From Cornus controversa (taxonomy: Eukaryota; Streptophyta; Magnoliopsida; Cornales; Cornaceae), in the NCBI GenBank assembly GCA_026545225.1, contig CM048845.1, forward strand, positions 55,218,033 through 55,282,032: a stretch of DNA of 64,000 nt, read 5' to 3'. Under the pieces are notes generated by a model, which made no database searches, had not been told where the DNA came from, and saw only the letters and a list, made by a program, of their open reading frames with translations. The position numbers and the translations under genes are program-made. Positions within the stretch are counted from its first letter, which is position 1. Each line of letters opens with the position of its first letter. Below, piece after piece: positions 1-60,071 of this stretch.

Positions 1-365
1 CAATGCATCAAAGCTGATGATGGATCGACCATCTATTGACACAAGGTGCGGCGGCTACTAGAATTGGTAGGAAAAATAGGACATTTAAAGATTGATACAT
101 CGATGCTAATGTCGATGCATCGAAGCTGCGAGGCATCAAAGTGGCTACTTCGATGCGTTGAAACTTCCTTTAATTATAAATTTACAAAATTGTCCCAAGT
201 ATGAAAAAAATTTAAGTTAAGCCCTCAATTCACACCTCTCACACTCAGATATTTCAAAAATATTTAGATACATTCCTTTTTGGATTTGAAGGATCACATG
301 GAACAAGATAGGATCACGGAAGTTGTCGCCAAGTTTAACGTCTACGGTGAGACGTGTGCACAAGT
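1..365 (-). other. Post-integrase spacer of element A with GATGCATC palindromes
   Basis: Non-coding sequence that follows the integrase stop in element A. It aligns, reverse-complemented, with 57086-57397 of element C, including the sequence just after the integrase stop and the segment next to the T3 insertion. Between about 95 and 160 it holds copies of CGATGCATCG and near variants, the element A and C version of the inverted-repeat clusters found elsewhere in the window. No reading frame is supported. Confidence 0.7.
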
Positions 366-1331
366 TCATTCATCCAAATATATGGGATCCATCAATTCAA
401 CAAAATTCACATATTCCAATTGCATTTGACTATCAATGCAGGGTTTCACTCGTTGCCCATTAACCTTAAAAAGTATCCCATCCTTGGGATCTTTTAGTTT
501 CACTGTGCCATGAGGAGCAATGGATTGGATAATAAAAGGGCCGTCCCATCGAGAGCGAAGCTTCCCAGGGAATAAGTGAAGCCTTGAATTGTAAAGCCAA
601 ATTTTTTGGCTTGGAGAGAGTGATTTGGAATGAATATGACAATCATGGAAGGCTTTAGTCTTTGCCTTATAGATTTTTGCACTCTCGTAGGTGTCATTTC
701 GTATCTCTTCTAATTCACTCAATTAAAGTTTTCGGGTTGAGCCAGCCAACTTCATGTCAAAGTTAAACTTCTTAATAGCCCAAAAGGCTTTGTGCTCTAA
801 CTCAACCGGTAAGTGGCATGCCTTACTATACACAAGACGGTACGGTGACATGCAAATTGAGGTTTTATAAACAGTACGGTACGCCCACAATGCATCATTG
901 AGACGTTGGGACCAATCCTTGCGATCGGGGCGCACTATTTTTTCAAAAATATGCTTAATTTTCCTATTAGATACTTCTACTTGATCACTTGTCTACGGGT
1001 GGTAAGGTGTAGCGACCTTGTGAGTGACAAAGTATTTATGTAGCAAGGTTCGAAGGAACCGATTGCAAAAATGTTTACCCTCGTCACTAATGATGGCTCG
1101 AGGTGTACCAAAATGACTAAAAATGTTCGCTTGAATGAATTTGACCACAACTGTGTGATCATTAGTTCTGGTAGCCATAACCTCAACCCATTTATATATG
1201 TAATCTACCGCTACAATTATGAATTCAAAACTGGCAGATTTTGGGAAAGGGCCCATAAAATCAATAACCCATACATCGAAGATATTGACGATTAAGATCG
1301 GGTTCAAAGGCATTATATTTTTATGGGACAT
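366..1331 (-). pseudogene. Integrase of element A (broken)
   Basis: Integrase inserts retrotransposon cDNA into the genome. The core is read on the minus strand from 1331 and contains the first catalytic Asp in VIDFMG, the second in IISDEG and the Glu in the QVEVSN segment, followed by the [10 protein letters not shown] region and the C-terminal part ending LMDPIYLDE. The frame is cut by an amber codon between PYHP and TSDQVE (about 993-995) and by TAA at 723-725, where element H has a Gln codon. The zinc-finger part before 1331 is degraded. Expression of a working enzyme is not possible. Confidence 0.88.
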
Positions 1332-1638
1332 AGCGCTGAGGTGCTAACATCGCTCACAGGAGTGACAGAATAAGTATGTGTCTCGATGCATGGTGGGCCA
1401 AAAAAAACCGCATTGAAGGATTTTGGAAGCAGTTTTTTGAGCACTGAAATGACCTTCGCATTCCAATGTGTGACAGAAAGTAAGAATACTAAGACTCTCA
1501 CTCTATGGCATGCACTGGCGGATGATTTGGTAGGGACAATACTTAAATAGATAGGGATCATCCCAAAAGTATGAACGCACTTGGGAGTAGAAACGATCCT
1601 TTTGTTATTTGGACCAAGAGGGTGGAAGCTTCTAGTAG
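1332..1638 (-). pseudogene. Degraded integrase zinc-finger region of element A
   Basis: This lies between the RNase H frame and the integrase core on the minus strand. The other Athila elements here carry the HHCC zinc-binding domain at this place. Only scattered short similarity remains in different frames, so the domain is inferred from position rather than read directly. Confidence 0.5.
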
Positions 1639-3979: not shown

Positions 3980-4030
3980 CTACGGTTTAATTGTCGCCAT
4001 TGAAAGATTAAATCTAGTTTAATTCTTAGG
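3980..4030 (+). other. Start of element H leader, up to the array insertion
   Basis: Non-coding leader between PBS and gag. It is interrupted after TTAGG at 4026-4030 and resumes at 24962. Confidence 0.8.
4026..4030. repeat. Left target-site duplication TTAGG of the array
   Basis: The five bases before LTR1 are the same as the five bases after LTR3 (24962-24966). This shows that the whole 20.9-kb array descends from one insertion event. Confidence 0.9.
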
Positions 4031-5541
4031 TGATCGGCGTTGAATGTTACGCATTCTAGCCTCTTAACTTATGTATTTTATTCTCTTAGTGATAGAGTAT
4101 TTTGTTATTTTACTTCGTTTTAGTATTTTCTGTATTTTTAGGGTCTTAATGATTATTTCAATTAAAACTAAGCTTTTGGGCTTTTAAAGAAGACATCCAA
4201 GATGGTTAGATGAAGCCTATATCAAGGAGATTCATTCAACCATTTATTTCAACTCAAATCAGCCTAAGGAAGAGGTCCAAGAGAATTACAGCTGCTTAAG
4301 AAGGTTTCGGGCCTGCAGCCCAAATCTACGCATAATACAGTCTTAATCCCGTTTTGAAAAATGGACCAGAAGTCTTATTTTCGAGCCTCAAATTGACATA
4401 ATTTTCGCGTTAGGTTGAACGAAATTTGATTCTGCACACTTTTGTATTTTAAGAAAATTTCGTAAATCGGACTTCTGGTGGGTCAAAAGTTGGGCCGAAG
4501 TCAGCAGGAAAAACCCACCTGATTAGTGCTGCAGGAAACCCTAATTTATTCCTAATTGGATTAGGACTTTGGTGTATTCTCTTGGGGAATAAAGTGAAGA
4601 ATAAGAGGCTGGAGTTGAGAGGAAGAGAAAAAGAGAGATTGGAGAGTCTGAGAGGGCTGAGAAGAGAATAGAAACATATTTGTAGAGCCATTGGAGAACG
4701 AAGTCATACGTAGAATTCATGAAGATGATGCCTTCTTCCTCAACAGTTGAAGCTTCTTCTTCTACCATGAGCGGTTAGTTCATCCACTAGGGTTTTGATG
4801 TAGCCCTAACAAAGCATCAATGGTTTGATTGTTTTAATTATTGGGGACCTTTATATACATGCATAGATTGTGTAATTTAGAGGATTCTTATTATAGAATT
4901 GAGCAATAAAAGTCTTGTAAATTCAGTTTCAATGATTTCTTATCTTGTCTTAGATATTTAGTTGTTGTTATTGAACTCAATCTCTCTTGTTTTCTGTGAT
5001 CATAAGAGCGATTATTACATAATGGTAATCACTGAATATATTGTTAAGAGCTTTGATGGATTATGCCTAGAGAAGATGAACCATACTGCACCCTAGATTA
5101 GAGTAGTTAGGCAGATGACCCATGCCAATCGAAGATAGTCCATGGCTTAGCCTTAATCATATGTTATCTTCTTGACGGATGAAGGTGAGCTTGTAGCCAC
5201 CGACACCACTTATGTATGATGTAATTCCCCTATAGTTGATTCAATTGACCATTGATTGTGGAGTTAGTGGTGAAGTCAAATACCCTAGATTTCTCTCATA
5301 TTATCTTCACTATCTATTTACTTTGATTTATTTTATTTTATCTTTTTAATTAGTTTAAAAATCAGGTTTCTTTTCTTTATAAATTTAATTAGAATTAATT
5401 CAGTATTCCAACTCATCAGACCATAATCCCTGAGGTACGATACCCCTTTCGATAGCCCTATTCTGCAAGGAATTCGTTCTATTGCGAAGTGTGAAAAATT
5501 TTAATTGATATACTTTTTGAGTCACCCTCACATACGAATCA
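4031..5541 (+). repeat. LTR1 of the element B array
   Basis: The 1511-bp LTR starts TGATCGGCG and ends GAATCA, giving TGAT/ATCA termini, and is followed by a PBS. By eye it differs from LTR3 at about 28 positions, mostly transitions, plus a 4-bp indel near 5450. No CGAT-NN-ATCG inverted repeats were seen in it. Confidence 0.93.
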
Positions 5542-5546
5542 ATTTT

Positions 5547-5564
5547 TGGTGCCGTTGCCGAGGA
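5547..5564 (+). other. Primer binding site, copy 1
   Basis: TGGTGCCGTTGCCGAGGA equals the tRNA-Asp PBS of element H except for two transitions, so it is a slightly decayed tRNA-Asp primer site. Confidence 0.85.
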
Positions 5565-5685
5565 TTATCTATTTGATTGATTGGATTTCACAGAATTAAT
5601 TTTAATTGAATTTTTAGTCTAGGAAATTTTTATATTTTATTTTTAATTTTGTTTTTGTTTTCTTTTCAGGTGTTTTGGTTAATAT

Positions 5686-7353
5686 ATGCAAGGTCGTCGT
5701 TCTATAGCTGATCCTTTGATACCTCTTGATCCTGAGCCTGAAAGTACTCTTAGACAACAGAGGAACATCCTTGTTGATACAATTGTGCAAGAGGAAGAAT
5801 TAATTGATGATATGGCAGAAGAGAGGAATAACAACCTTGTTCCTAATGCTAATGGAGAGAGAGCTAGATTGCTTAGGGACTACTATGTTCCTGAGACATA
5901 TACCTCACCAGCAGGTTTTCAACTGCCCAATGTCACAGCACAGAATTATGAGATCAAGTCCAACATTATTCAGATGCTACCATCTTATTTTGGACTGACT
6001 CAAGAAGACCCTTACAAGCATCTGAATGAATTCATTGAAGTGTGCTCAACTACCAAAATTCATAACTTCTCTGAAGATGCTTTCAAAATAAGACTTTTTC
6101 CATTCTCCTTGAAAGACAAAGCAAAGTATTGGTTCAATTCTCTACCGGCAGGTTGTATCACGACTTGGACTCAGATGCAACATGAGTTTCTCTAGAAGTA
6201 TTTTCCGATAGGGAAGACCAATCAGTTCAGATGTGCTATCACTGGTTTCTCCCAACATGAGGGGAAACAATTTTATGAGACATGGGAAAGATTCAAGGAC
6301 CTTCTTAGGAAGTGTCCCTATCATCAAGTTCCTAAGTGGCAACTAGTGCAGAGTTTTCATGAAGGGCTCACAGAAGCCAACAGACAGATGGTTGATGCAT
6401 CTTGTGGAGGTACTTTTATGTTGAAGAGTGAAGAAGAGGCATGGACCTTATTTAAAAATCTTAGTGACAACTCTCTATAACATGTGTCCTCTACTCGTTC
6501 TAGCAGACATGCTACTACAAAAAAGACTGATAGAATTTATGAGGTTGGTGCTTCAGAAGCTATGCCAACTGATATTGATTTAATTGCAAAGAAGGTAGCA
6601 GCAATTATGGCTGCCAATCAAACTCCTTCTACTTCAAATTCTTCATTGCTAGGCCCTTGTGAATTTTGCTCTAGTCCTATGCATAATGTGAGCAATTGTC
6701 CTTTAATGGGGTAATTTTCTGATGTTCAACATGAGCAAGTCCAAGCTACATTCACTAGACCAATGAATCCTCCACGAGGTAATACTTACAATCCCACATG
6801 GAGGAATCATCCTGGTTTTTCTTACAGTAACCAAGGGGCAGCAATGCAACCATCATATCAACCTAGGACTTTTGTGCCTCAACAGCAATATCAAACACAA
6901 AGTCCTATGGCCCAAAGAATTTCTGCTATTGAAGACAAGCTGACACTTACCTTGTCTAAATTTGACAAGCTTGATTCTCTTATAGAGACAGTGCAAGCTA
7001 CTACAGCAACAATACAATCTACAGTTCAGCTAGTGCACTCGGATTCTCAATCCATTGCCAAACTGGAATCTCAGTTTGGACAGCTTGCTACTTTATTGAG
7101 TAGAAGAGAAGAAGGGAAGCTCCCTAGTCAACCAATTGCTAATCCAAGAGGGATGCAAGCTTCCATAAGCAACCCCCACCATGAGCAAGTTCAAGCCATT
7201 ACTACTTTGAGGAGTGGGAAAATAATTGATAATAAGGTGGGTGAGAAGAAAGAAGAAGAAAAAGTGACCACAAGTCCAAGTGCTGAAATTCCTTATGAGC
7301 CCAAGGCTCCTTTCCCACAACGTTTCCTTGAAGCATCTAAATTGGGGAAGTAA
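5686..7353 (+). pseudogene. gag of element B, copy 1 (nonsense-riddled)
   Basis: Gag forms the virus-like particle and binds genomic RNA. Start chosen at the ATG of MQGRRS; elements H and C start with MLGRRS and MQGRRS. The capsid-like core includes DPYKHLNEFIEVCS, RLFPFSLKDKAKYWFNSLP and the MVDASCGGTFMLKS segment, and a zinc knuckle CX2CX4HX4C lies at 6658-6699. The C-terminal part includes the LPSQPIANPRG and ITTLRSGK segments. One frame runs through to the protease, but TAG at 6193-6195 and TAA at 6478, 6712 and 7351 break it. At 7351 elements H and C have a CAA codon. Confidence 0.9.
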
Positions 7354-7371
7354 GGGGACAAGCTGCATGAC

Positions 7372-8061
7372 ATGATGGAGGTGTTTCGACAAGTGAAGAT
7401 TAATTTGCCACTCCTTGATGCCATCAAGCAAATTCCTCCTTATGCTAAATTTTTTAAGGACTTGTGCACTCAAAAAAGGCGTTCTAAAAGCCAAATGCCA
7501 AAGAAGGTGATGCTGCCACAACAAGTAAGTTCGATAATTCAGCAGTGCACGCCTCCCAAGTACAAGGATCCTGGTGCCCCAACTATCTCATGCATCATTG
7601 GGGATCACCATGTGGATAAAACTCTTCTTGATTTTGGTGCAAGTGTGAATTTGCTACCCTATTCAGTCTACTTACAATTGGGCTTGGGAGAATTGAAGCC
7701 TACCTCGGTGGTATTGCAATTTACAGACAGATCAACAAAGCAACCACGAGGAATCATAGAAAATGTGCTCATTAAAGTGGACAAGTTCTACTTTCCTGTT
7801 GATTTCATTATACTTGACACTGAGCCAGTTCATAATCCTAAGAGGCACATTCCAGTGATCCTTGGTCGACCTTTCTTCGCTACAGCTGATGCTTGCATAA
7901 ATTGTAGGTCGGGGATCATGGATATCTCATTTGGCAACATGAAGGTTAAGCTTAATATTTTCAATGCTGTTGAGAATCCTCCAGATCAGACTAATATTTT
8001 CTTCATGGACTCTGGGGATGTGGCTGAATCTATAGATGAAATAAGGGTGCAAGAAAAATAG
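7372..8061 (+). pseudogene. Protease of element B, copy 1
   Basis: Retropepsin-type aspartic protease that would cleave the polyprotein. It continues the gag frame after the stop at 7351-7353. The catalytic motif reads LLDFGASVNLLP with the Asp codon at 7630-7632; Athila proteases normally have D-L/S/T-G-A, and Phe in second position is unusual. Downstream, the VDFIILDTEP and VILGRPFFATADACINCRSG segments are typical for this lineage. The frame ends at TAG 8059-8061. The sequence then passes directly to the region before integrase, with no RT. Confidence 0.88.
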
Positions 8062-8073
8062 AAGGAAAAGAAG

Positions 8074-9478
8074 GTGTTTGAAGATCAATTTTCTACCATG
8101 GTGGTAAATTTTGTATGCACTACACTTTCCAAAACATTTCAAAGTGAGCAATTGTTTGGAGTATCCGACAACTCCATACCATGGTATGCAGATATTGTGA
8201 ATTATTTAGTCACGGGAAAAGTGCCAAGAGACTGGACCAAGCGAGAACGTGATAGATTCTTCTCTAAAGTTCATCATTACTTTTGGGAGGATCCAGAGTT
8301 GTTAATATTGTCCATATCAGATTATTCGGCGATGTGTCCCAGACCATGAGTTTCAAGATATTCTCAAATTCTACCACTTATTGGCATGTGGAGGCCACTT
8401 CAGTGCAAGGAAGACAACAGCAAAGGTACTTCAATGTGGATTCTTTTGGCCTTCTCTATTTCATGATGCATATGTTTTCTGTAAGACTTGTGATCGATGT
8501 CAAAGATTGGGTTCAATGTCGAGGCGAGATATGATGCCAATGAGCCCCATTCTGGTGGTTAAAATTTTTGATGTTCGGGGAATTGATTTTATGGGACCCT
8601 TTCCACCCTCTTTTGGCTATGAATACATTCTGGTTGGTGTGGATTATGTTTCCAAATGGGTGGAGGCCATTGCAACTCAAACCAATGATCACAAGGTGGT
8701 AATAAAATTCATGCATGAGAATATTCTTAGTTAATTCAAAATTCCTCGAGCCTTGATCAGTGATGGTGGTTCTTACTTTTGTAATAAATTCTTGAGAGGT
8801 TTGCTTGTTAAATATTCAGTGACACATAAGGTGGCAACACCTTATCATCCTTAGACAAGTGGGCAAGTAGAGCTATCCAATCGAGAAATTATGCATGTTC
8901 TCAAAAAGACAGTGAGACCGGATAGAAGAGATTGGTCATTCCGACTGAGTGAGGTGCTATGGGCATATCGGACTGCTTATAAGACTCCTATCGGTATGTC
9001 ACCATATCGGTTAGTGTATGGGAAAGAATGTCATCTTCTAGTAGAGATCGAGCATAAGGCGCTCTGGGCAATCCGAAAATTTAATTTTGATGCAAAAAGA
9101 GCTGGGGAAGAGAGAAAGTTTCAATTAAATGAATTAGAAGAGTTTAGACGTGATGCTTATGAAAGTTCATGAATTTACAAAGAGAGGATGAAGCCATTTC
9201 ATGATCGACATATCTCACGGAAGTCCTTCTCTCTGGGTGATAAAGTGTGGCTCTTCAATTCAAAGCTTCGGTTGTTTCCCGGAAAATTGCGTTCAAGGTG
9301 GGATGGACCATTCCAAGTGAATTTGATTTTTCCTCATGGTGCTATAGAAATTCGAAGCTTTTGAGATAATACTTTGATGAAAGTTAATGGGCAAAGGTTG
9401 AAGCATTGTGTGGAAGGATGTGTGCCAAGAAAAGACGTAGAGTCCGTCGACTTAACGGATCCCGTCTACCCGACTTAA
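8074..9478 (+). pseudogene. Integrase of element B, copy 1 (broken)
   Basis: The first part, 8074-8349, holds the [16 protein letters not shown] segment that in other Athila elements links RNase H to integrase. A frameshift near 8335-8350 leads to the zinc finger (HFSARK, then [11 protein letters not shown]) and the catalytic core. The triad codons are Asp 8585-8587, Asp 8762-8764 and Glu 8870-8872, with correct DX35E spacing. Stops at 8732 (TAA), 8852 (TAG), 9170 (TGA) and 9362 (TGA) interrupt the frame. The C-terminal part closes at TAA 9476-9478 after LTDPVYPT. Confidence 0.9.
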
Positions 9479-9795
9479 TCTCTTTGGAGAGTTGATCGTC
9501 CCCTACGGATGTTAAATTATAGATTTTGTATGTATTTATATACTTTATTTGCTTTAATTTTCTTTGATTTTAATTTTTAGTTTTAGTTTTCTTTCAATTT
9601 TAGTTGCGTTTTAATGTTTTTTCTTTGAGTTTTTGATGTATAAGTTGCTTTCGGAGGATGCCAAGAGGTGTACCGAGGTATTTGGACTCAAGACGGGTGA
9701 AAAATCGTGCTCTCGGTCAACCTTGGGTGATGGAGACTCAAAATTATCAAGTCTCGATCGAACTTGGGCGATGGAGGGTCAAACAGGCTTCCAGG

Positions 9796-9908
9796 AGGGG
9801 GATCGATCGCCCCAATTGAGGGGGATCGATCGCCCCTTAATATTTTTGAAGGATGACCACCACCAGCTGGGCGATCGATCGCCCATCGCTGGGGGGATCG
9901 ATCACCCA
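9796..9908 (+). promoter_or_regulatory. Inverted-repeat cluster, GATCGATC type, copy 1
   Basis: Four palindromes in 113 bp: two GGGGATCGATCGCCCC-type units, one GGGCGATCGATCGCCC unit that contains CGAT-CG-ATCG, and one decayed unit ending ATCACCC. They lie about 30-145 bp before the TATA-like box at 9941. The function is unknown. Confidence 0.75.
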
Positions 9909-9940
9909 AGCCCAAAAATTGGGCTGGCCGAGAATCCTCC

Positions 9941-9948
9941 TTATATAT
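9941..9948 (+). promoter_or_regulatory. TATA-like box before ORF3, copy 1
   Basis: TTATATATGG lies in otherwise mixed sequence about 410 bp before the ORF3 start and just after the palindrome cluster. The sequence permits an internal promoter here; no transcript evidence is available. Confidence 0.4.
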
Positions 9949-10358
9949 GGACACCCACTCCTCCTTTGTTGCTTCCACTTGCATCCTTGACCTCTTTGAA
10001 CTCCAATTCAAGTCCTACTTCAACCGAACAATTATTTTCTTCAATTGGTGAGTATTAAACAAGAATTCAACATTGATCATCATCAACTTCAACATCAAAT
10101 TGGATCAAAAATCACTAGTTCTCAAAGGAAGCTCTCACTTTTTCAAGTTCAACATCAAAGTAAGTGAAGTTTTTCTTTGGTGAAATTGTGCAATTCTTTT
10201 AGGGGGCTTTTGAAGACCAAGTTTGGGGGATCAATTTGGTGCATTTACTTGTTCGATTTGGGTGGAAAAATTATCGAAAAGAGGAGATTGAAGGTTCCAA
10301 TTTAATTGTGCACACCAAGTGTTTGATTTAGTTCCTCAACCACACTTTTTCTACTTCT

Positions 10359-11540
10359 ATGGCACCCAAGAGAGCAAGTCACCAAGGTGCTTCAAGTTCA
10401 CGTAATCCTCGCCGAGCGAGGCATGATCCAACTACCGGTTCTTCACGATCTCACCGAGAAGGTATTCAAGAGAGATGGCATCCAAGGGCTTTGAACTTTG
10501 AAACTACATTTGACATAGCCGAACTCTATGGTATGTTTCCCGAGACAAGATGGGGTATTTTTGACATCCGTTGTCGTCGGTCAGCATCCATTTTTATTCC
10601 ACTCTTGTCTACTATCTACCCAAGGCTTGTCAAGGTATTTTATCAAAACTTAATGCTGACACCTAATGAGTAGGATGTGCTTACTTCTTCAGTAGATGGA
10701 ACAATAGTTCGTATGGATATGTCATCCATTGCTATTGCCATGGGTTGTCCTCATGAGTGCCCAGATGAATTGTCTCATATCTACACTCCTCTACCCGACG
10801 ATTTGTCAGTGGGTAATTTGGTTGCACGTTTGTGTGCTAATCGGTTTTCTGGGCCGAAAAGGAATGCAGCTTCCAAGTCTTCAATGTCAAATCACTTATG
10901 GTTCCTTGATGCTGTTCTACTCAAGAATGTATGTCTAATTGGACATAAAACCGAGAGACGTCAAGAGTTCCTCAAAGCTTTATATGCTATACATTTTGGG
11001 CATTGGCTGTCATTCCCACAGATTGTTTGGGGTCAGATGGAGAAATTCTATTCCAAGGTTGTGGCCAAGGCACCAGACACTGCAAGTGACTGGGAGTTTC
11101 CATTCCCGACTATCATTCATCAGTTGCTTGTTGCACAGGGGTATGCAGTCCATGAGGACGAGCTTGCCTTTCCACATGATCTTCATTATGACACGCATGA
11201 CTAGAATTTGAGCCGATCTCATATGCACCAGAGAGTCATAATGGCGCCTGGTGAAGTATCCCAGTTGGCCCAAGGAGGAGAACATATAGATATACCACCA
11301 CCGGTGGAAGATCTAGAGGAGATGGAGGCAGAGGAAGAGGAGGTGCATGCACAGGCTGGTGGCCATGATTATCACTATTTTGAGGGGCAGATTGCTGGGT
11401 TAACAGCCCAGTTTGGCACCTTACAGACAGAGGTCTCCACACAGTTTGGAGCAATAAGGACAGAGATGGCGGATCACTTTTGTGACACTCGCCAAGAGCA
11501 ACTAGAGATGAGGAGGATACTACGTGCACTGATGCGCTAG
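10359..11540 (+). pseudogene. ORF3 (Athila env-like position), copy 1, interrupted
   Basis: Sits where Athila elements carry their third ORF, often called env-like. It resembles the family annotated as putative plant transposon protein: a basic Ser/Arg-rich N-terminus, then a domain with FDIAELYGMFPETRWG, SMSNHLWFLDAVLLKNVC and HFGHWLSFPQIVWGQM. I see no signal peptide or membrane segment, so an envelope role is not supported. TAG at 10671-10673 interrupts it; copy 2 has CAG there. After a second in-frame TAG at 11202-11204 the frame continues to 11540 as an acidic, probably coiled-coil tail. Confidence 0.8.
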
Positions 11541-11589
11541 GCAAACTTAGATCCGGATGCTCAGTCACCACCACACCCTTGACAGGAAG

Positions 11590-11594
11590 GTAAC
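11590..11594. repeat. TRIM target-site duplication GTAAC, left, copy 1
   Basis: The same five bases follow the TRIM at 12168-12172. Confidence 0.9.
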
Positions 11595-12167
11595 TGTAAT
11601 ACCCCGCTCCAACACATGGTATGATATTGTCCGCTTTGGGCCTGAGCCCGCACGGTTTTGCTATTGGGATTTACCCCAAAAGGCCTTATACCATTTGAAG
11701 AGAACATACTACATATAAGCACATCCCCTTTTCCACACCCAGGCGATGTGGGATTGAGCACCCTGTACCCTGTCAGTGTGGTAGCTCAGCCCAGTGTCTG
11801 TCTTCGCACCCGCCCACTCACACCCGTCCACAAGGGTTACTACAATCCACCCCCCTACGAGGCCCAACGTCCTCGTCGGCACACTTCTTCCGGCTGGGTT
11901 CAGGCTCTGATACCAACTGTAATACCCCGCTCCAACACATGGTATGATATTGTCCGCTTTGGGCCTGAGCCCGCACGGTTTTGCTATTGGGATTTACCCC
12001 AAAAGGCCTTATACCATTTGAAGAGAACATACTACATATAAGCACATCCCCTTTTCCACACCCAGGCGATGTGGGATTGAGCACCCTGTATCCTGTCAGT
12101 GTGGTAGCTCAGCCCAGTGTCTGTCTTCGCACCCGCCCACTCACACCCGTCCACAAGGGTTACTACA
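11595..12167 (-). mobile_element. TRIM element nested in element B, copy 1
   Basis: Two 250-bp direct repeats (11595-11844 and 11918-12167) start TGTAATACCCC and end TACTACA as written on the plus strand. They enclose 73 bp, and GTAAC duplications flank the 573-bp unit. Next to the right repeat, 11904-11915 is the complement of TGGTATCAGAGC, the initiator tRNA-Met PBS, so the element reads on the minus strand. The repeats differ at one base I could see. It encodes nothing and is a terminal-repeat retrotransposon in miniature that would need another element's proteins. No 5S-like sequence was seen, so it is not Cassandra. Confidence 0.93.
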
Positions 12168-12336
12168 GTAACCATCTTTTGAATTTTATTGTTTTAAAAA
12201 AAAATAATAATTTGAAAAATGAAAAAATATATATTTATTTTTTTTTAGGATTTTTCTCTTTCATATTTATTTTCACCCATACTATTTCACTTGATTTTTG
12301 GGGTATAGTGGTCTGTTTTGACAAGTTTTAACATTC

Positions 12337-12349
12337 AAGTTTGGGGGTG
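12337..12349 (+). other. Internal PPT-like site 1, copy 1
   Basis: AAGTTTGGGGGTG, identical to the PPT next to the LTR, but 1.4 kb upstream of it. Confidence 0.7.
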
Positions 12350-12476
12350 TGCTTGCATTGCCTTTTTACAACTTGGTGTGCTCTATTTTCTTTCCACTAC
12401 TCCAGATTTTTGGTAACATCGTTCTTACTCTTCTCTATGCTTCAATTAGATGTACATTGAGGACAATGTACAATTT

Positions 12477-12489
12477 AAGTTTGGGGGTG
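12477..12489 (+). other. Internal PPT-like site 2, copy 1
   Basis: AAGTTTGGGGGTG preceded by ATTGAGGACAATGT, an arrangement shared with 33379-33413 in element H. Confidence 0.7.
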
Positions 12490-12968
12490 AGGCGATGCCT
12501 ATTTTTGTGCTTAGTACAATATGGGGGGAAATTTGTGTGAAATTATTTTTGTTTTAGGATTTTTGTTTATTTTATTTTCTTAGTTTGTTTATTATTTTCT
12601 TTTGTTTTATTTTTAGATAGAATGTTTTGACATTATTCAAGGGATTAGTACCTTATGTAGGTGCATAACTTGCAATTTGTGAGTATGTTTTAAATTTTTG
12701 AAACCTGCGGTTTAAATTAAGTGGTTTTAATCATGGTTTGCAATAACATGTTTTAGGGTGATGAATTTTAGTTTCCTTACATGCACAGACACACTAGCAT
12801 AATCTTATGGGGTATAAACTGTGGCTATGAGTTATTGAGTTACATATGCTTGATATTAATTAGTATCTCTTGAGAATGAGTACCGATGATGTGTTTACTT
12901 GACTTCAATGAAAAAAAAAAGAGAAAAAAGTGATGAATAAGCAAATCAATTTGATCTTTTTCATGAGT

Positions 12969-13172
12969 AACCGGGCCTCTATGCCTCAAGAAGCACGGAG
13001 AGTTCGCGTCAAAAGTGAAAGGGTGAGAAAAGATGAGCATTGATTGTCTTGATTTGTAGCCTGACTGATTCGAGTAATTAGGTCTTCGGGGTATCTTAAA
13101 GCCTAGTACCCTAAAGCCATCTGGTTTGGGAGTCACTGACTGGAAGCTTGCTACATGGATCTTTTAGAAAGC
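12969..13172 (+). ncRNA. Conserved non-coding block in Athila 3' region, copy 1
   Basis: Aligns with 33874-34078 of element H although the coding parts of the two elements are clearly diverged. Shared parts are ACCGG followed by CTCTATGCCTCA, a segment around CCTAAAGCCA and CTGGTTTGGGA, and GCTACATGG. The centre at 13113-13127 can pair as a short hairpin; in element H the same place is a perfect 14-base palindrome. Probably an RNA or DNA signal of the element; I do not recognise it. Confidence 0.5.
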
Positions 13173-13725
13173 TTAATAAATCAAGACATTACACAACCAA
13201 TAAAGCAATGAAAAAAATGATGAAAAAAAATGAAAAAGTCATGTATTCATGTTTGGAAGTATGATTTCAATAAGGGGAACTAGTGAGTTGAAAGGGTATG
13301 TGCCTTAATATATTTAGGGTTGAGTTATATTACATGAGATGATTGCTAGTTCACTTTACACGAGGGAGCTAGAGTTAATTATTTTGAGATATGTTGATGT
13401 GAATTATGCATGGGGACCATTGATTTGAATTATGGAATTTGAAAGTTGAAATTATTCTTGAATGCAAGTTTGTAACTGTATATTGTAATCTTCTTCTTGA
13501 ATTAATGTTGAAACAGAGTTTTGAATGTTTGTGGGTAACATTTCTGGAAACCCTCACGAGACTATACTTGTCCACTAGGGGGAACCTAGGGGTTTAAAGG
13601 CTTGTTGCATATGCTAAATGCAATCGTTTCTCCTACGAAAGTGGAGTTGGGTAGTTTAGTTAGTATTTGTTAGTTTCTTTGTTTTAGTTTTATTTTATTC
13701 TATTGCTAAGGGACTAGCAATATGT

Positions 13726-13738
13726 AAGTTTGGGGGTG
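13726..13738 (+). other. Polypurine tract of array copy 1
   Basis: AAGTTTGGGGGTG lies directly before LTR2 and would prime plus-strand synthesis. Confidence 0.88.
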
Positions 13739-15249
13739 TGATCGGCGTTGAATGTTACGCATTCTAGCCTCTTAACTTATGTATTTTATTCTCTTAGTGA
13801 TAGAGTATTTTATTATTTTACTTCGTTTCAGTGTTTTCTGCATTTTCAGGGTCTTAATGGTTATTTCAGTTAAAACCAAGCTTTTGGGCTTTTAAAGAAG
13901 ACATCCAAGATGGTTAGATGAAGCCTATATCAAGCATATTCATTCAACCATTTATTTCAACTCAAATCAGCCTAAGGAAGAGGTCCAAGATAATTACAGC
14001 TGCTTAAGAAGGTTTCGGGCCTGCAGCCCAAATCTACGCATAATACAGTCTTAATCCCGTTTTGGAAAATGGACCAGAAGTCTTATTTTTGAGCCTCAAA
14101 TTGACATAATTTTCGCGTTAGGTTGAACGAAATTTGATTCTGCACACTTTTGTATTTTAAGAAAATTTCGTAAATCGGACTTCTGGTGGGTCAAAAGTTG
14201 GGCCGAAGTCAGCAGGAAAAACCCACCTGATTAGTGCTGCAGGAAACCCTAATTTATTCCTAATTGGATTAGGACTTTGGTGTATTCTCTTGGGGAATAA
14301 AGTGAAGAATAAGAGGCTGGAGTTGAGAGGAAGAGAAAAAGAGAGATTGGAGAGTCTGAGAGGGCTGAGAAGAGAATAGAAACATATTTGTAGAGCCATT
14401 GGAGAACGAAGTCATACGTAGAATTCATGAAGATGATGCCTTCTTCCTCAACAGTTGAAGCTTCTTCTTCTACCATGAGCGGTTAGTTCATCCACTAGGG
14501 TTTTGATGTAGCCCTAACAAAGCATCAATGGTTTGATTGTTTTAATTATTGGGGACCTTTATATACATGCATAGATTGTGTAATTTAGAGGATTCTTATT
14601 ATAGAATTGAGCAATAAAAGTCTTGTAAATTCAGTTTCAATGATTTCTTATCTTGTCTTAGATATTTAGTTGTTGTTATTGAACTCAATCTCTCTTGTTT
14701 TCTGTGATCATAAGAGCGATTATTACATAATGGTAATCACTGAATATATTGTTAAGAGCTTTGATGGATTATGCCTAGAGAAGATGAACCATACTGCACC
14801 CTAGATTAGAGTAGTTAGGCAGATGACCCATGCCAATCGAAGATAGTCCATGGCTTAGCCTTAATCATATGTTATCTTCTTGACGGATGAAGGTGAGCTT
14901 GTAGCCACCGACACCACTTATGTATGATGTAATTCCCCTATAGTTGATTCAATTGACCATTGATTGTGGAGTTAGTGGTGAAGTCAAATACCCTAGATTT
15001 CTCTCATATTATCTTCACTATCTATTTACTTTGATTTATTTTATTTTATCTTTTTAATTAGTTTAAAAATCAGGTTTCTTTTCTTTATAAATTTAATTAG
15101 AATTAATTCAGTATTCCAACTCATCAGACCATAATCCCTGAGGTACGATACCCCTTTCGATAGCCCTATTCTGCAAGGAATTCGTTCTATTGCGAAGTGT
15201 GAAAAATTTTAATTGATATACTTTTTGAGTCACCCTCACATACGAATCA
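13739..15249 (+). repeat. LTR2 of the array, a hybrid LTR
   Basis: The 1511-bp LTR serves as 3' LTR of copy 1 and 5' LTR of copy 2. Up to 14090 it carries the LTR3-type base at every site where LTR1 and LTR3 differ; from 14213 on it carries the LTR1-type base. The switch lies within about 120 bp, which marks the crossover point. Confidence 0.93.
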
Positions 15250-15254
15250 ATTTT

Positions 15255-15272
15255 TGGTGCCGTTGCCGAGGA
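15255..15272 (+). other. Primer binding site, copy 2
   Basis: Same decayed tRNA-Asp type site as at 5547, with the same two transitions. Confidence 0.85.
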
Positions 15273-15393
15273 TTATCTATTTGATTGATTGGATTTCACA
15301 GAATTAATTTTAATTGAATTTTTAGTCTAGGAAATTTTTATATTTTATTTTTAATTTTGTTTTTGTTTTCTTTTCAGGTGTTTTGGTTAATAT

Positions 15394-17061: not shown

Positions 17062-17079
17062 GGGGACAAGCTGCATGAC

Positions 17080-17769: not shown

Positions 17770-17781
17770 AAGGAAAAGAAG

Positions 17782-46717: not shown

Positions 46718-48126
46718 TGATAAGTGTTCAATACTATATATTTGAATCCTCTTTATTGCATATGTTAGTCCCGTTATTACGTTTACCGAGATACATTTAC
46801 GATATTTTTATATTTTTGATGTATTGCAGGTTTTGTAGTAAAAGGAGCAAGGTTTGAGGCCATTTGCAGTTGAAGAGCAAAATTCAGAATTAAAGCTAAG
46901 ACATCTCGATCAATCGAGATGTTGATCTCGATCAATCGAGATCTCGATTGATCGAGACTTGAATTTCGATTGATCGAAATCTCGATCAATCGAGATTCCA
47001 ATTTCGATTGATCGAGATTCTACAGACCTACTTGCCCACTTGCTCACCTGCTCTTCCCACTTGCAACAAAATCTCCTTTTTTGCACGACTTGGAGGGATT
47101 GTCTGACTTGAACAAGACACATGGAGATATTATAGCTCTAGTTTATATATATATTGATATATATATATATATACATGGTGGGCCCCAAGGATGAAAAGAG
47201 AGCCATAAAGCACAAAAGAAGCCATTTTTCTCTCATATACAATATACACACTTAGAGACTTTCGGGAGAGGGGAAGAGGAAGCTGAACCAGACCTTGAAG
47301 CTTCATTTTCTCCATCAATGAAAGAGTGCAAGACTGCCATGAGCAACTAACTTCTCTGCTAGGGTGTGGGTGAAACCCCTAGCCATGTAAACTTGTTCAT
47401 TTTTGTAGCATTATTTGGGATTTATATTTAAATGTTGATTATTTAGTCTAGTGACATTGTACACTTATACATTTCTTATATATATTCATTTGATGTTGAT
47501 TTTATTCTTATCTTAGAGTAGAATCTTTCATGTGAATGCACAACATTTGCATCTTGCACAAGAAATTCAAATGATGGCTAAGTAATGGTACTTAAAATGA
47601 ATGTGTTGTTCTTACTTGTATAAATCATGCCAAGATAAGGTAGTTTGGATGCATTTAGGTTCACTTAGAGAGTAGGGTAATTAGTTAGGTTGAAGAACTA
47701 TGTTTGTTGAAGATGGATTATGATAGGGTTGCACACACATTAATCTTTTGATATGTCATTGAGGTCACAAGCCTAATGACATTGTTAGACATTTAATTTA
47801 TAAATCCCAAGCTTGCTACACTTATGGACATGTGAATGGCTAGTGGTGGAAACCACCCCTAGTTCTCTCTCCCAACTTTTAACTCTTTAAATTTATTATT
47901 TTTACATTTTATGCAATAGTTTTAAAACAAAAATCAAAACCTTGTTTTTAGAATTAAAGTGGAATTAATCTTTCTTTAAGACAATTAACGACTAGTCCTC
48001 GTGGGATCGATACCCTCTATATAGAACCGTATCTACAAAGATTCGTGCTCTTGCGAGTGGTTAAATTATATTTTGAAAAAGGGACAAAAATAAGCTTACA
48101 ATTATAATTCAAGTTTTGCCACATCA
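46718..48126 (+). repeat. 3' LTR of element H
   Basis: 1409 bp, TGATAAGTG start and CACATCA end. A CGAT-NN-ATCG cluster occupies 46904-47018. A TA-rich TATA candidate lies at about 47139-47176, so the cluster is about 120-270 bp upstream of it, in U3. The part from 47012 on matches the truncated 5' LTR at 2845. Confidence 0.94.
46904..47018 (+). promoter_or_regulatory. CGAT-NN-ATCG cluster in element H LTR
   Basis: Six to seven units in 115 bp, such as CTCGATCAATCGAG, CTCGATTGATCGAG and TTTCGATTGATCGAAA. The same forms occur in the spacer of this element at 30511-30760. Confidence 0.8.
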
Positions 48127-51652: not shown

Positions 51653-52973
51653 TGTCACACCCTAATTTTCAGTTCCTGAAAATCGAGTGAACAGTGAAAG
51701 TCCCACCCAGTTCGCATTCATGAACTGCTTAATTCCAGAACTTGACTTCATGTATGTTTGGAATTTCAGAATGATACTTAGTCCATTGGAAAGAGGATCT
51801 GAAAATACTCAATTTTTTTAAAAAAACCATGCACAAATCCAAGTTAATACAAGGAAGTTACGCCCAATTGAAGTTTGGACCAATTTTAGATAATGTTGTA
51901 AATAGTAATTACGATTCATCGTAATTACTAGGGCGGTTGTGTCCATTCAATCTATTGAACTACCTCAACCACTAAATCAATGTGGAATAATAATTACATA
52001 CATACATTTACTTACGTATGACTCACCCTCAATAATCCATTATGGCCCCACATGTGGCCACACATTGCATCCCCAAATAATTTCTCAACTCTATCTCAAT
52101 AATCCACCCAACCACACATTACGATGCATCATAATGTTGGTTACGATTGCACAAGGTGCGCAAATCCTGTGAAATTCACTAAAATCTCACTCAAAACACC
52201 TCACTATTTACGATGCATCGTTATTGAATTTTTGATGCATCACCGTATCACAATATATCATAACGGAGATTACGATGCATGGTAATCACTCACCCTGCTA
52301 CATTAGCAAATCCACCAAATGATTACAACAATCATTCTCCTTCCAATTCATCATCTTAAACATAATATCATCGAACATAATTATCATTTCTGCATATCCC
52401 AAACATCCACAAAATGATAATTTATCACAATAAGATTCCACCTTATACACTTGAAACACAAAAATGACAATTCATGTATTATTATACACCTACTTCAAAA
52501 ATCATCAATTTTATACAATCTTCAAGAGTTGTCAAACTTATCATACATAGATAGAACATTAAAGGTCTTATACACATTTCTTATCCAAAATAGATACAAT
52601 ATTTCTAAACTAGTCCACATGCCACAAATTGATATGAACATCTATGTACATCTCTCAAAACACAAAATGCTCAAAATAAGAGTTCCTCTACTCTAAGTCC
52701 AACTCATGGTTGTGCATCCTTAACCACCTCCTTGCCATGTCCTGAAAGTGTTAGTGTAGGGGGATTAGCAATTTCAACGATCTCAAGGTTACAATGTTGT
52801 GAATTTTATTCAAGTTCACATTTTATGTTCAATGCATAAAACACAAATCATGCTCGATGAACTACGTGTCATGCGCCCTAGCATTCTAATCACAAGCTCA
52901 TATGAGTAATTCACTCAAGTCATGGCATATACGTCAATTATAACTTGAGAACCACATAAAGATAATTCATGCA
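51653..52973 (-). mobile_element. Diverged Tekay-type LTR relic
   Basis: Starts TGTCACACCC and runs parallel to the T1 LTR: a segment with CCATTGGA, then AAAATACTCAA and an A-run, then GAAGTTTGGACCAATTTT, then GTAAATAGTAATT and inverted repeats. Here the repeats are TTACGATTCATCGTAA and TACGATGCATCGT. It is broken off at 52974 by element C. Divergence from T1 is high. Confidence 0.75.
51907..52280 (-). promoter_or_regulatory. CGAT-NN-ATCG units in the Tekay-type relic
   Basis: TTACGATTCATCGTAA at about 51908-51923, and ACGATGCATC-type units near 52129, 52208 and 52270. They are more scattered than in the younger elements. Confidence 0.6.
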
Positions 52974-54370
52974 TGATAAGCATTGAATGTTAGACATTCT
53001 TGCACCTTTACTTATGTATTTTAATGCCATAGCTGCACATATTGTATAGTTTTTACGTGTTTTTATGTTTTTGATGATTTCTGATTCAAACTCAAAATTT
53101 GGCGTAATTCGACTCGTTCATCAGTTCAAGAATGCATTCCTATGCCCTATCACGCTTCATGAAAAGTTCAGATCAAGGAATAGTGAATGGCGTATCAAGA
53201 CCGGAGTCAAAAAATTGAAGAGTTGCAGAAGAAGGAAAGATTGATGCATCAAAGTACCAAATTCGATGCATCGAAGTCCCTACTTTGATGCATCACCCAA
53301 TCCTGTAGAAAATATTTTTCTACAGATATTTTCTTGACTTGCCACTTGTCCAATTTTGCTTAGATAAAGCATTGAATGGAATTTCTGTGATATTTTGAGC
53401 CTCAAATCAGATATATAACTAGGAAATATGTAATATTGAGATATATCACAATTCTTGTAAAAAAGAGCATACATAGAGTTCTAGAAAGAGAAAGTGAAGT
53501 TCTAGAGAGGGAAAGCTTCAAAAAGGACTTTGTAAGGCCTTGAAGACCATTTTGAGCATGGGATCATCTTTGTCTATGGAGTGCTTCTAGCCCACCATGA
53601 TCAACTAATCCTTCTCTAGGGTTTTGACAAATCCTAGTCTTGTAAATATATTCTAACTTTAATAAATTGGAGATTTTTATGTATTTTTGTGTATATGTAC
53701 CTTGCCTTTAGCCTTATGAGTAATATAAGTTTACAAATTCTTCATGTTCATGTGAGTAATTTATCTTTCTTGTCTTAGAATGCTAACTTTTCTCATATGA
53801 TCTTCAAACACTTGTACTTCCACAAGGATTACATGTGATTGTTTGGTACTAGTTTTCACTACAACATGCATAGCTAGATTTGCATAGTCCATGCTAAAAG
53901 ATGGTAAATTAGCTACACTTAGTTAATTAGGTATTTAAGTAAGTAGGTAGGTAGGGAATTTACACATATCAAAGATGGATTATAGTATTTTAAGGTGCAT
54001 GTATCCTCTTGAAGGTAGCATTGTACGCCACAAGCCATTTGCACGGCTTAGTACACAATTGCATGAATTCCCCCAATTTATTAGAAGTATGGCATACTAT
54101 GAGGCTAGTGGTGAAGTCTCAACCCTAGTCCTTTACTCTTCTCTCAAACTTCGTGTTTTAATTATCTTTTATGATTTTAAAATATAGTAAGAAAACAACC
54201 AACACTCGGTTGTGATGTAAACAAGAGCCAACCCTCAACCTTTAGCGAATTATTCCTACGTAGTCTCTGTGGGATTGACACCCTCAACTTAGAGTCCTAT
54301 CCTTCAAGGATTCGTTTTATTATGAGTGGTAAATATAAATTGTGAAGCATTGCCTTTGAAACTGACAACA
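52974..54370 (+). repeat. 5' LTR of element C
   Basis: Starts TGATAAGCATTGAATGTTAG, clearly related to the element B LTR start, and ends a few bases before the PBS. The end at 54370 (ACAACA) is approximate. GATGCATC palindromes lie at 53241-53294 and a TATA candidate (AGATATATAA) near 53409. The cluster is again about 120-170 bp upstream of that box. Confidence 0.85.
53241..53294 (+). promoter_or_regulatory. CGATGCATCG cluster in element C LTR
   Basis: Three units: TTGATGCATCAAA, TTCGATGCATCGAA and TTTGATGCATCA. The same type is found after the pol deletion at 57285-57334. Confidence 0.75.
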
Positions 54371-57080: not shown

Positions 57081-57397
57081 CTTGTGTACATGTCTCACCG
57101 TAGATAGCAAACTGGGCATAAATCTCTACGGTCTTATCATGTTCCATGTGACCCTTCGAATCCAAAAAGGGACATATCTAAATAATTTTGAAGTGTCTAA
57201 GTGTGAGAAGTATGATTTGAGGGTGAAACTTAAATTTTTTCATGCTTGGGGCAATTTTGTAAACTTTCAATCAAAGAGAGCTTTCATGCATCGAAGTACC
57301 CACTTCGATGCATCAAAATCATATTTGATGCATCAATTTTTAAAATGTCTCATTTTTATGTCAATTCCAATAGCTTTCGCACCTTGTGTCGATCGAT
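57076..57397 (+). other. Post-integrase spacer of element C joined to protease
   Basis: From GAACTTGTGTACATGTCTCA on, it matches the reverse complement of element A from about 375 down to about 20. RT, RNase H and integrase are thus missing. GATGCATC palindromes lie at 57285-57334. TCGAT at 57393-57397 may be the left target duplication of T3; its partner is outside the window. Confidence 0.75.
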
Positions 57398-60071
57398 TGT
57401 CACGCCCCAAAATCCGGACCACCGGGACTCCCCCGGACCGACCTCGAATCTCGAGTGTGAACCCATTCACTCAACCCCATGAACTATCCCAAGCACACTC
57501 GTGCAATAGTATCAAGGTTTAATACCACGCTATAATGCCCCAATTTCTAATTCTCGGAGAACCGGAGGTTGAACTGTCTATTTAGCCCAATAGACCCTCA
57601 TTACACTCATTTACAGTGGAAGCTTAACTTAATTGTTGCATATAAATTCACACAACACTACCTCAACCAATTCCCATGGGCCCTAGATCAAATCATACAC
57701 CTTAGTGGCAATTTACTTGGCCACACCTTTGAGAATCACTCACTTTCGAGCCTCAACACTTTTTGTGTTTGGAATCTGAAATTGAAGCGTACACCATTGG
57801 ATAGAGAATCCAAAAATACTCAAGTTCAAAAAAAACCACACTCAATTCCGATCTAAAACGAAGAAATTACGTCGAAATGAAGTTTTGGAAAAAGTTATGA
57901 ATAGTAATCTCGATTGATCGAGATGAGATCTCGATTGATCAAGATTAAATCTCGATTAATCGAAATTCTAGCGAGATTTTCACCCTTTCGGGACCCCAGA
58001 CCTGCAATATCTCGATTGATCGAAAATGGGACTTCGATTGATCGAAATTCCTCTTTTCTGGACTCTAAAAATCACCATAAATCATCACCCCTTCGATCAA
58101 TCGAAATGGGGAATTCGATTGATCGAAATGGGCATCTCGATTGATCGAGATTAAATCTCGATTGATCGAAATGTACCTCCTGGGACTTCCAACAGCCCTA
58201 TATATGATCCATTTGAACTCAAATCTCAACCAAACCACCTTGGATCATTCATAAAACATATAAATCATCCCCCAATGATATAATATCATACTCACACATC
58301 AACCTACACATTTGAATCTCAAATCTTGTAAAATCATAGAAAACTCATCCTAAATTCTCAATGCACATAAAATTCAAGTGCATAAACCATCCTCATTTTC
58401 CAAAGATCATATTCATCAACTCATACATACAACCTAACTCACACATCGAAATCCTACAACCGTGATTCCAATATAAATCCACCCTTCAAAACCTTCATAT
58501 CCAAGAGTTCAAGATATAAAAGACAAAAAGGATACATTCATCCATTTAAGCTCCAAATTCATATAAAATTCATGAAACCATACACATAAGGATTCAAATG
58601 AATATACATGTTACATATACCGTGAATGTAACTATAAATCAACATAATCCACATGCCACATGCCGGCATGGATAGCCAGAAACATATTTCACCATCCAAA
58701 ACCTCAAAATACACCAAAATGCTCCAAGTAAGGAAGCAAGCTCTTTTCATCCATTCTAGGCTTCTTACCTGAAAAAATATTTGGGGGAGCGGGGTGAGCA
58801 ACACTGCGGCTCAGTAGAGATGCCCCTCCCCTCCTAGGTGCTGACCCGACACCGACCTACATGTCCCTCATTACATGACATGTAAAATGCTTTCATGCGC
58901 ACGACAACATACAATTCAAGTATGAATGCACTCATTCATATATCATATTTTTCAATGCATATCGTTGCTATAACAAGCCTAGCATGCATTCTAACATTCA
59001 AAATAACACATGGTCACATATATGTCATAAGGCATGCATGTCACTCTCATATGCCTACAAACCACAACCTAGCATATTTTGATCATGCTTCAACAATGCA
59101 CACACTTGCTATAAAATAACCTAGCATGCATTCAACATTTATACACACACACAACCAACATATAATCATATGATTGCACCCGAAAATACACATAACCTAC
59201 ATATGCATATAATACACAATATAGCTAATCATGCTCTCATTTTGCACACTTTACACATATTCAACCCACACATCATATATTCATCAAGATGGATCTATCT
59301 AGCATGCATAATCACAAGGGAAGAGGAAATATAAAAATTCAGCCCCTTGCCCATCTCTCTCACATACAAACTCAACCGAAAACCTCTCCTAACCACCCAA
59401 AACCCTAGAATCGACAACTAGAAGAGAAGAAACACCCCTACCTCGAATTTGGAAGCTATCTAAGCAATCTCCAAAATTTCCAGCGATATCCACCTTGCCG
59501 GAAGTCGAGTTTGTTCGGTTCAAACCGAAGCCCTAGCCGTCCCCTACACACTTTCCTTCTTCGGCGAATCACGAATCCAAGCCGAATGCACCCGAAATAT
59601 AGAGAGAAGGTGGAGGGATGAAGAGAGAAATGTTTAGAGAGAGAGGGAACTGTGAGAAATGAGATCTCAGATCTCCCTGAGATATTTATTCCAGTCCTAG
59701 GGGCGCAAAATGACCGTTTTGCCCCCGGGCCACTTAATGTACCTTCCCGACCTCCGAATTAATTCTCGAAAACTCCGTTGGACTCGAAATCACTTCCTTA
59801 ACACTCTAAATATTTTGTTTAGTCCATATCCAAAAATAAATATTTTAAAAAATTTTCCGGATTCCCCGGGCCCACTTAAGTCGCCTCCCGGCCCCGGTTT
59901 GACCAAAAATTAAAACTTTTCCAAATTTTTTGAAAACTTCCAAAAACCTCATAACATGTTTCCAAACATGTTTTCCACTCTCGAAACATCCAAAACATCA
60001 TTCGAAATGCCTTTATAGCAAAAATGATTAAAATTTTTGAAAACCGGTCAAATTTGGTTCCGGTCTCTACA
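57398..60071 (-). repeat. 3' LTR of T3
   Basis: 2674 bp, TGTCACGCCCC start and GTCTCTACA end on the plus strand, same ends as T1. CGAT-NN-ATCG cluster at 57907-58172; minus-strand TATATAGG near 58197-58204, as in T1. Confidence 0.9.
57907..58172 (-). promoter_or_regulatory. CGAT-NN-ATCG cluster in T3 LTR
   Basis: About ten units, mostly CTCGATTGATCGAG and TTCGATTGATCGAA with TG or CA centres. It is in the same LTR position as in T1, but the sequence between the units is only partly alike. Confidence 0.8.

Follow-up and report, generated by a model that had tools for sequence, protein, structure and literature searches.

The closest described counterparts of the arrays reported here are the RM boxes of Sireviruses, which are Ty1/copia retrotransposons: in the available parts of PMC2829016 these are clusters of short palindromes with a CpG in the core (CGG-CCG; Tnd-1 has ACAATCGATTGT), found in the long terminal repeat (LTR) from 200-400 bp, with extra copies upstream of ENV, and a promoter role has been proposed for them. 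The same text favours an internal promoter for ENV in Sireviruses, none having been conclusively identified. We describe clusters of another palindrome, CGAT-NN-ATCG, in a 64,000-nucleotide stretch of the Cornus controversa genome (assembly GCA_026545225.1, contig CM048845.1, positions 55,218,033 to 55,282,032, forward strand; hereafter the window), which holds Athila-type retrotransposons (families A, B, C and H) and Tekay retrotransposons (T1, T3 and a relic). L numbers denote other loci. The lineage names are putative, following the preliminary description of the sequence and the domain layout; H has RVT_1 and RT_RNaseH matches, and the domains of H and T1 are read as Ty3. The clusters are genuine, genome-wide and ordered. 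To judge from sequence, we think it rather likely that they would be portable arrays of dimer-binding sites, driving an LTR promoter and an internal promoter for an env-like open reading frame (ORF), and so a Ty3 counterpart of the Sirevirus palindrome boxes.

Abundance, form and spacing of the sites

Exact copies of CGATNNATCG number 43 in the window, against a mean of 0.25 and a maximum of 2 in 100 dinucleotide shuffles, and 64,842 in the genome (771.7 Mb, 61 contigs), against 4,446 for a reversed-pattern control. As an unbiased test of half-sites, all 256 palindromes of the form XXXX-NN-xxxx were tallied over 200 kb of contig C1, drawn as 20 random 10-kb stretches between 5.0 and 53.3 Mb. 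CGAT ranked first of the 256 by observed over expected (47 vs 0.68, a ratio of 69); the runner-up, CGCG, reached a ratio of 60 resting on 2 sites, and TATA and ATAT, with larger raw counts (302 and 306), gave lower ratios (15.5 and 11.2). Shuffles, genome control and ranking together rule out chance or base composition as the source of the cores. The 47 sampled cores are confined to 6 of the 20 stretches, and 45 of them lie in or beside elements (L006, L012, L014, L017, L018 and L023) that match Athila-type or Tekay ones in the window; the exceptions are L012:6253, inside an integrase, and L014:9437. A solitary window core at 37559, outside any cluster, likewise lies within a Tekay integrase ORF.

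The core is present in Athila-type families A, B, C, H and L030 and in Tekay families T1/L012, T3, the relic, L005, L014 and L017; among the elements examined, from which Copia LTRs were absent, no array was seen beyond these two lineages. The clusters that the preliminary description had reported were found again, exactly or to within a few bases, and the genome scan it had called for places them well above the chance rate and in several families of each lineage. Its statement that nearly all of them reduce to CGAT-NN-ATCG is right for H, T1 and T3 and too strong for A, B, C and the Tekay relic, which have 0-2 exact cores each (none in the internal array of C), their other sites being off by 1-2 bases.

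Site form was derived from 115 exact sites, comprising 90 distinct 26-mers, with L002 left out as an overlap. The consensus is ATYTCGAT-NN-ATCGARAT, and the arms covary: the first flanking position is complementary between arms in 85 of the 90 distinct sites (75.0 expected) and the second in 67 (45.0 expected), values reached in 0 of 2000 shuffles. At flanks 4 and 5 the signal is marginal, the observed value being reached in 82 and 97 of the 2000 shuffles, and among the same sites no covariation stood out at flanks 3, 6, 7 and 8. Aligned copies show such paired changes directly. In the homologous Tekay LTRs T1 and T3, aligned sites are altered symmetrically from TTTCGAT..ATCGAAA to CTCGAT..ATCGAG, and symmetric double changes also distinguish aligned sites of L018 and L023, both Athila H. 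Within Athila H the arms are mostly TTT/AAA in both arrays of L023, mostly CTC/GAG in the LTR arrays of L018, L006 and the window, and mixed in the remaining internal arrays; this pattern, with both arrays seen in two elements, is suggestive of a joint shift of arms in the LTR and internal arrays of one element.

Spacing is equally restricted: 64 of the 88 neighbouring pairs less than 130 bp apart sit at steps of 16-17 or 20-22 bp, and none at 18-19 or 23-37 bp. Genome-wide counts, made for steps of 16, 18, 20, 22 and 25 bp only, gave 7,230, 225, 1,692, 11,867 and 3 places respectively. Among the places listed, the 22-bp step occurs alike in YR-centred, GC-centred and ACGAT-armed sites, and is therefore not the accident of one family, though the totals are still inflated by copy number. 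Steps of 22 and 16 bp would correspond to about two and about one and a half helical turns. The arrays of H, L001, L023, T1 and T3 hold 8-15 sites, the others 2-6.

Positions of the arrays and nearby TATA-like boxes

Athila-type arrays sit in the gap between pol and the env-like ORF, and two families, H and C, also bear an array within the LTR, some 190-320 nt from its start. The features of the window that bear on this are as follows.

93..160, minus strand: array A, sites with a GC centre, on the 3' side of the integrase match in an Athila-type element
4030..24961, plus strand: two B elements with a common middle LTR (LTRs 4030-5541, 13738-15249 and 23446-24961)
9796..9908, plus strand: array B, unit 1, GGGGATCGATCGCCCC and GGGCGATCGATCGCCC sites, in the integrase-to-env-like gap
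9942..9950, plus strand: B TATA-like box TATATATGG, 37 nt past the last B site
10332..11201, plus strand: B env-like ORF of unit 1, at 99.7% identity to that of unit 2
19504..19616, plus strand: array B, unit 2, a copy at an offset of 9708
20040..20909, plus strand: B env-like ORF, unit 2, weak PF20167 match (E 6.9e-10, below the Pfam cut-off)
30511..30760, plus strand: internal array of H, YR-centred, between the integrase end at 30117 and the env-like ORF from 31552
30774..30779, plus strand: CACGTG, between the last internal H site and the TATA-like box
30787..30794, plus strand: H TATA-like box TATTTATT, 31 nt past the last internal H site
31552..32307, plus strand: H env-like ORF, PF20167 (E 2.3e-12)
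46718..48126, plus strand: H 3' LTR, with a TGATAAGTG start behind the polypurine tract
46904..47018, plus strand: LTR array of H, LTR +187 to +301
52974..54369, plus strand: LTR of C (Athila-type), start by L017 homology, end set just ahead of the primer binding site (PBS) at 54376
53241..53294, plus strand: LTR array of C, GC-centred, 22-bp steps, from LTR +268
57285..57334, plus strand: internal array of C, no exact core, about 200 nt behind a gag-protease match with no pol match in between

The layout of H and B fits Athila (no chromodomain, an env-like ORF behind pol, a long LTR and a TGGCGCCGTTGCC PBS). H spans 25.5-34.3 kb of the window and is read as interrupted toward its 3' end by a solo LTR of B and by a nested T1. 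The main site form of B, GGGGATCGATCGCCCC, reflects one-sided loss of the outer C/G. Sites between integrase and env-like matches occur also in L003, L030, L031 and L034, and L001, L004, L032 and L033 keep the array beside a gag-protease match, with no reverse transcriptase (RT) or integrase match within the 3 kb covered. The same lack of an RT or integrase match between gag-protease and array is seen at 56.0-57.3 kb of the window, and the env-like match is kept in L001 and L004; non-autonomous Athila-type forms may be frequent.

The downstream flank was inspected for 12 pol-env arrays, and in 8 of them a TATA-like box begins 31-37 nt past the last site: at 31 nt in H, at 35 nt in L001, L003, L004 and L023, where it reads TATTTAAA, at 36 nt in L031 and L035, and at 37 nt in B. 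The env-like proteins of H and B are only 32-33% identical, so the eight boxes amount to two diverged families in agreement rather than to eight separate cases. The CACGTG of H is presumably the G-box of plant promoters. Genome-wide, CGATNNATCG-N(30-40)-TATTTAAA is found at 1,383 places (671+712) and the control pattern at 28 (17+11); the gap is exactly 35 nt in 96 of the 100 places listed, mostly H-like copies where the letters are shown. A genome-wide B-type TATA pattern, poorly built, gave a meaningless 10 matches against 6 for its control, and a bacterial-type promoter scan was uninformative for plant DNA.

Tekay elements carry the array at a single LTR position.

34314..37177, minus strand: T1 3' LTR, 2864 bp, Tekay
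34695..34939, minus strand: array T1, 8 exact cores, about +2244 to +2480 of the 2864-bp LTR
42120..44983, minus strand: T1 5' LTR, adjoining PBS TGGTATCAGAGC, target-site duplication (TSD) CGACA
42501..42745, minus strand: array T1, second LTR copy, in the 5' LTR
51907..52280, minus strand: array of the Tekay relic, TTACGAT-NN-ATCGTAA flavour, adjoining a region that aligns to T1 LTR 2465-2669 (69%)
57907..58172, minus strand: array T3, of a Tekay family whose LTR is about 78% identical to that of T1

Marks of Tekay, a chromovirus lineage, are a chromodomain on the integrase, long LTRs and a PBS of the tRNA-Met type. The T1 LTRs (2,864 bp, TG..CA ends) flank an element with SH3_Tf2-1 and a weak chromo match (E 8e-4, below cut-off). 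The LTR segment directly 3' of the T1 array, 2445-2682, aligns in T3, the relic, L005, L014 and L015, and over 100 bp in L017. Sites ahead of its conserved block ACTATTCA number 1,622 genome-wide (793+829; control 28+25), at a length of 23 bp in 98 of the 100 places listed; the centres of these 100 sites are TG/CA/TA in 77, G-first in 21 and other in 2, and AAGT arms accompany 9 of the 13 intact cores with G-first centres against 0 of the 72 with YR centres. In L015 the place of the Tekay array is taken by another repeat, TTTGCACAATCGAAA, present in both directions (4380-4830), with similar units in L026:411-511; no Athila match to it was seen.

Some local repeats were noted in passing. The B pair at 4030-24961 is head-to-tail with 99.7% identity across 11.2 kb, as expected from unequal recombination; its inner repeat (253 bp, 323-bp step, 11592-12167 and 21300-21875 of the window) has relatives in L008, L017, L027 and L030. 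Tekay LTR sites recur in a single orientation every ~7.7 kb at C1:37657599-37703640 (at least 7 places) and C1:31091703-31114945 (at least 4 places), which suggests tandem LTR-internal arrays of Tekay in these two regions. Window positions 60918-61703 hold local tandem repeats whose shifted copies are 75-88% alike. Among the places listed, CGATGCATCG recurs, often in steps of ~22-23 kb, over C1:30651-488760 near the contig start, resembling a large subterminal tandem array.

Site flavours common to Athila-type and Tekay elements

The flavour of a site, meaning its arms and centre, does not track lineage: three flavours, and weakly a fourth, occur in both. A YR centre with ATYT/ARAT arms is found in Tekay T1, T3 and L012 and in Athila H; a GC centre with YTT/AAR-type arms in Tekay L005 and in Athila A, C and L017:9907, the last lying 5' of an env-like match; a CG centre with GGG/CCC arms in Tekay L017:1111-1174 and in Athila B and L031-L035. 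The weak case is TTA/TAA arms, shared by the Tekay relic and, through one site, Athila L030. Flavours differ in CpG retention. Over the 20 stretches and the window together, 78 of 87 CA/TG/TA-centred sites retain both of their CpGs, but only 4 of 16 GC-centred sites do (Fisher p 2e-7); the test excluded CG-centred sites, of which 3 of 7 retain both. The greater loss makes the GC flavour probably the older.

Array regions of the two lineages (13 Athila, 8 Tekay) were compared with their palindromes masked, using one reversed and four shuffled controls. The best match, between Athila L003 and T1, covers 37 nt with 33 of 37 identical (89%; E 1.4e-8, 47.3 bits), controls giving at most 26.9 bits; L001, L004, L023 and the window H match T1 and L012, which are one Tekay family, at 30-44 bits, and L005 matches L004 at 30.0 bits. 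In Athila as in Tekay, the block is flanked by palindromes.

30623..30651, plus strand: non-palindromic block in the internal array of H, homologous to the Tekay array block
34765..34801, minus strand: non-palindromic block in array T1, 33/37 identical to the Athila L003 block
42571..42607, minus strand: non-palindromic block in the second T1 LTR, a copy of the T1 block

A degenerate form of the block is present at the corresponding place in T3 and did not stand out in the masked comparison. No spacer homology above control accompanies the other flavours in these regions; it is limited to H-type pol-env arrays against T1/L012 and, weakly, L005.

The preliminary description had argued that common descent is not enough to account for a core found in distant lineages, and as regards descent of the elements this is supported. 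Of the explanations it put forward, module exchange is established for one pair, the Athila H pol-env array and the Tekay T1/L012 LTR array, by their common non-palindromic block. Among Athila the block is confined to H-type arrays, which leaves the direction of exchange uncertain; from Tekay to Athila would be slightly more likely, since traces occur also in L005 and T3. The other shared flavours may be older exchanges or may reflect matching to one protein.

Proposed function, alternatives and relation to known systems

An array would act as an upstream activating region of tandem two-fold-symmetric sites, to which a dimeric DNA-binding protein most likely binds cooperatively. It would drive the LTR promoter in Athila H, Athila C and Tekay; in Athila-type elements the pol-env array would also drive an internal promoter, from which the env-like ORF would get an mRNA of its own. 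Such a cassette would be portable, one version having probably moved between the Tekay LTR and the Athila pol-env gap, and its flavour would drift over time in both lineages with symmetry retained. A shared DNA-binding protein was already among the candidates of the preliminary description, and we infer it still as the best explanation of the fixed spacing, the arm covariation and the position ahead of TATA-like boxes; a dimeric state, promoter activity and selection of elements to match the protein are likewise inferred.

Several results weigh against this proposal. Four of the 12 pol-env arrays (L032, C, L030 and L017) are followed by no convincing TATA-like box; past the LTR arrays of H and C, TATA-like words come only ~117-130 nt downstream, in AT-rich DNA, and no clear TATA-like sequence accompanies the Tekay LTR arrays. 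The B LTR is without an array, B having the pol-env one only, so an array is not essential to every LTR. Homology outside the palindromes backs only one of the four shared flavours, and genome-wide totals are inflated by copies of few families.

A broader proposal, possible in our view and still rather doubtful, is that the flavours form a common regulatory code across distant lineages. Matching flavours would mark the trans-acting dimer (a host factor, or an Athila-encoded one hijacked by Tekay) that activates the elements, and the code would shift in both together, partly by cassette exchange. The greater CpG loss of the GC-centred flavour is what a succession of codes would leave.

That the palindromes act as RNA, forming transcript hairpins for packaging, dimerisation, translation or host small-RNA silencing, seems to us unlikely. 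Each of the 7 array segments that were folded exceeds its shuffle mean in stability (z -3.6 to -10.2; for T3, 1 of 200 shuffles was equally stable), and in maize an excess of small RNAs over Sirevirus palindrome clusters is described in the available text of PMC10760457. RNA pairing nevertheless predicts an excess of G.U among sense-strand mismatches, and 132 distinct oriented sites gave 44 G.U against 38 A.C (p 0.58); Tekay alone, with 11 against 4, leans towards RNA in numbers too few to decide. Pairing needs neither the conserved core letters nor the 16/22-bp spacing, and the pol-env arrays stand upstream of TATA-like boxes. The hairpin or dimer signal that the preliminary description had entertained is thus not upheld as the main cause, and the G.U test gives a purely RNA constraint no overall support. 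Small-RNA silencing may still make use of array hairpins, by analogy with maize Sireviruses.

We give a similarly low probability to the idea that the arrays recruit a VANC-like anti-silencing factor, element- or host-made, that removes methylation, lineages lacking the factor gene mimicking its sites. Dense short motifs with family-specific variants in noncoding DNA recall the VANC21 targets, the flavours are common to both lineages, and in Athila an extra ORF (PF20167) adjoins the array. VANC21 motifs, however, are described as having a single orientation within the array, and the available text of PMC5735166 does not use the word palindrome. No such factor was found either: the homologue search gave one homologue for the H env-like ORF and none for that of B, profile scanning of the env-like ORF returned PF20167 only and no DNA-binding family, and its predicted structure (mean predicted local distance difference test score, pLDDT, 41) was too poor for a structure search. 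On the same grounds the H env-like ORF was rejected as an element-encoded binder. A conceivable likeness of PF20167 to the plant mobile domain drew no support from the profile scan, and the available parts of PMC7156037 give no link.

Least probable, we think, is an absence of function, with ancestral tandem duplications of a palindrome in few amplified families inflated by copy number: most of the listed genome-wide places do resemble copies of few high-copy families, but arm changes are symmetric in aligned copies, both CpGs persist in 78 of 87 CA/TG/TA-centred sites, and unrelated families share steps and element positions. Target-site preference for palindromes (available parts of PMC6911290) cannot account for arrays that lie within the elements themselves; T1 has the TSD CGACA.

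For array-driven promoters, the preferred explanation, several consequences can be named. How the ORF behind pol is expressed in plant env-like retrotransposons is an unsettled question, and a pol-env array with a TATA-like box at a near-fixed distance (8 of 12, with CACGTG in H) makes the question of an internal promoter directly testable. Flavours held in common and an exchanged block point to mixing and matching of promoters among distant retrotransposons, which would alter models of their co-activation and silencing. The spacing rule also offers a ready probe for the binding protein, as TCGATNNATCGA repeats, or as TCGATYRATCGA against GGGCGATCGATCGCCC flavour repeats.

As far as its text is available, the open literature on Athila, Tekay, palindromes and internal env-like promoters yielded no report of this array. 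None of the available parts of PMC2829016, PMC10760457, PMC11963269, PMC12046899, PMC5735166, PMC7156037, PMC3212565 and PMC6911290 describes it, and the motif letters led to no plant-retrotransposon paper by title. What is new against these sources as available is that the arrays sit in Ty3 elements of two lineages, follow a spacing rule, stand at a near-fixed distance from a TATA-like box before the env-like ORF, have flavours in common across lineages and include an exchanged block.

Partial likenesses exist, as far as the available text of each source goes. The targets of VANC in Arabidopsis VANDAL elements (PMC5735166) are also dense arrays of short motifs in noncoding parts with family-specific variants; theirs, YAGTATTAY, stand in one orientation, are enriched in one family and have a known binding protein. 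Retand/TAT elements (PMC11963269) share a noncoding region from pol to the 3' LTR with repeats and extra ORFs; the repeats are family-specific tandem ones and the ORFs antisense, with no shared palindrome core described. Maize Sirevirus palindromes (PMC10760457) resemble ours in clustering in the cis-regulatory LTR region and in strong RNA folding, maize Ty3/RLG elements being generally without such a peak.

With the RM boxes the likeness goes furthest: a dyad palindrome repeated in many copies per element (8-15 in H, L001, L023, T1 and T3), an array behind pol or gag, and copies upstream of ENV, here between integrase and env-like matches in B, H, L003, L030, L031 and L034. The place in the LTR is similar for H (+187) and C (+268), unlike Tekay (+2244 of 2864) and the array-free B LTR. 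The core differs (CGG-CCG there, CGAT-NN-ATCG here), as do the hosts (Ty1/copia Sireviruses there, two Ty3 lineages here), and the spacing rule, near-fixed TATA-like box and cross-lineage block found here are not described in the available parts of PMC2829016. Since core and host element differ, the arrays are not members of the RM-box family, though they would be RM-box-like in their working.

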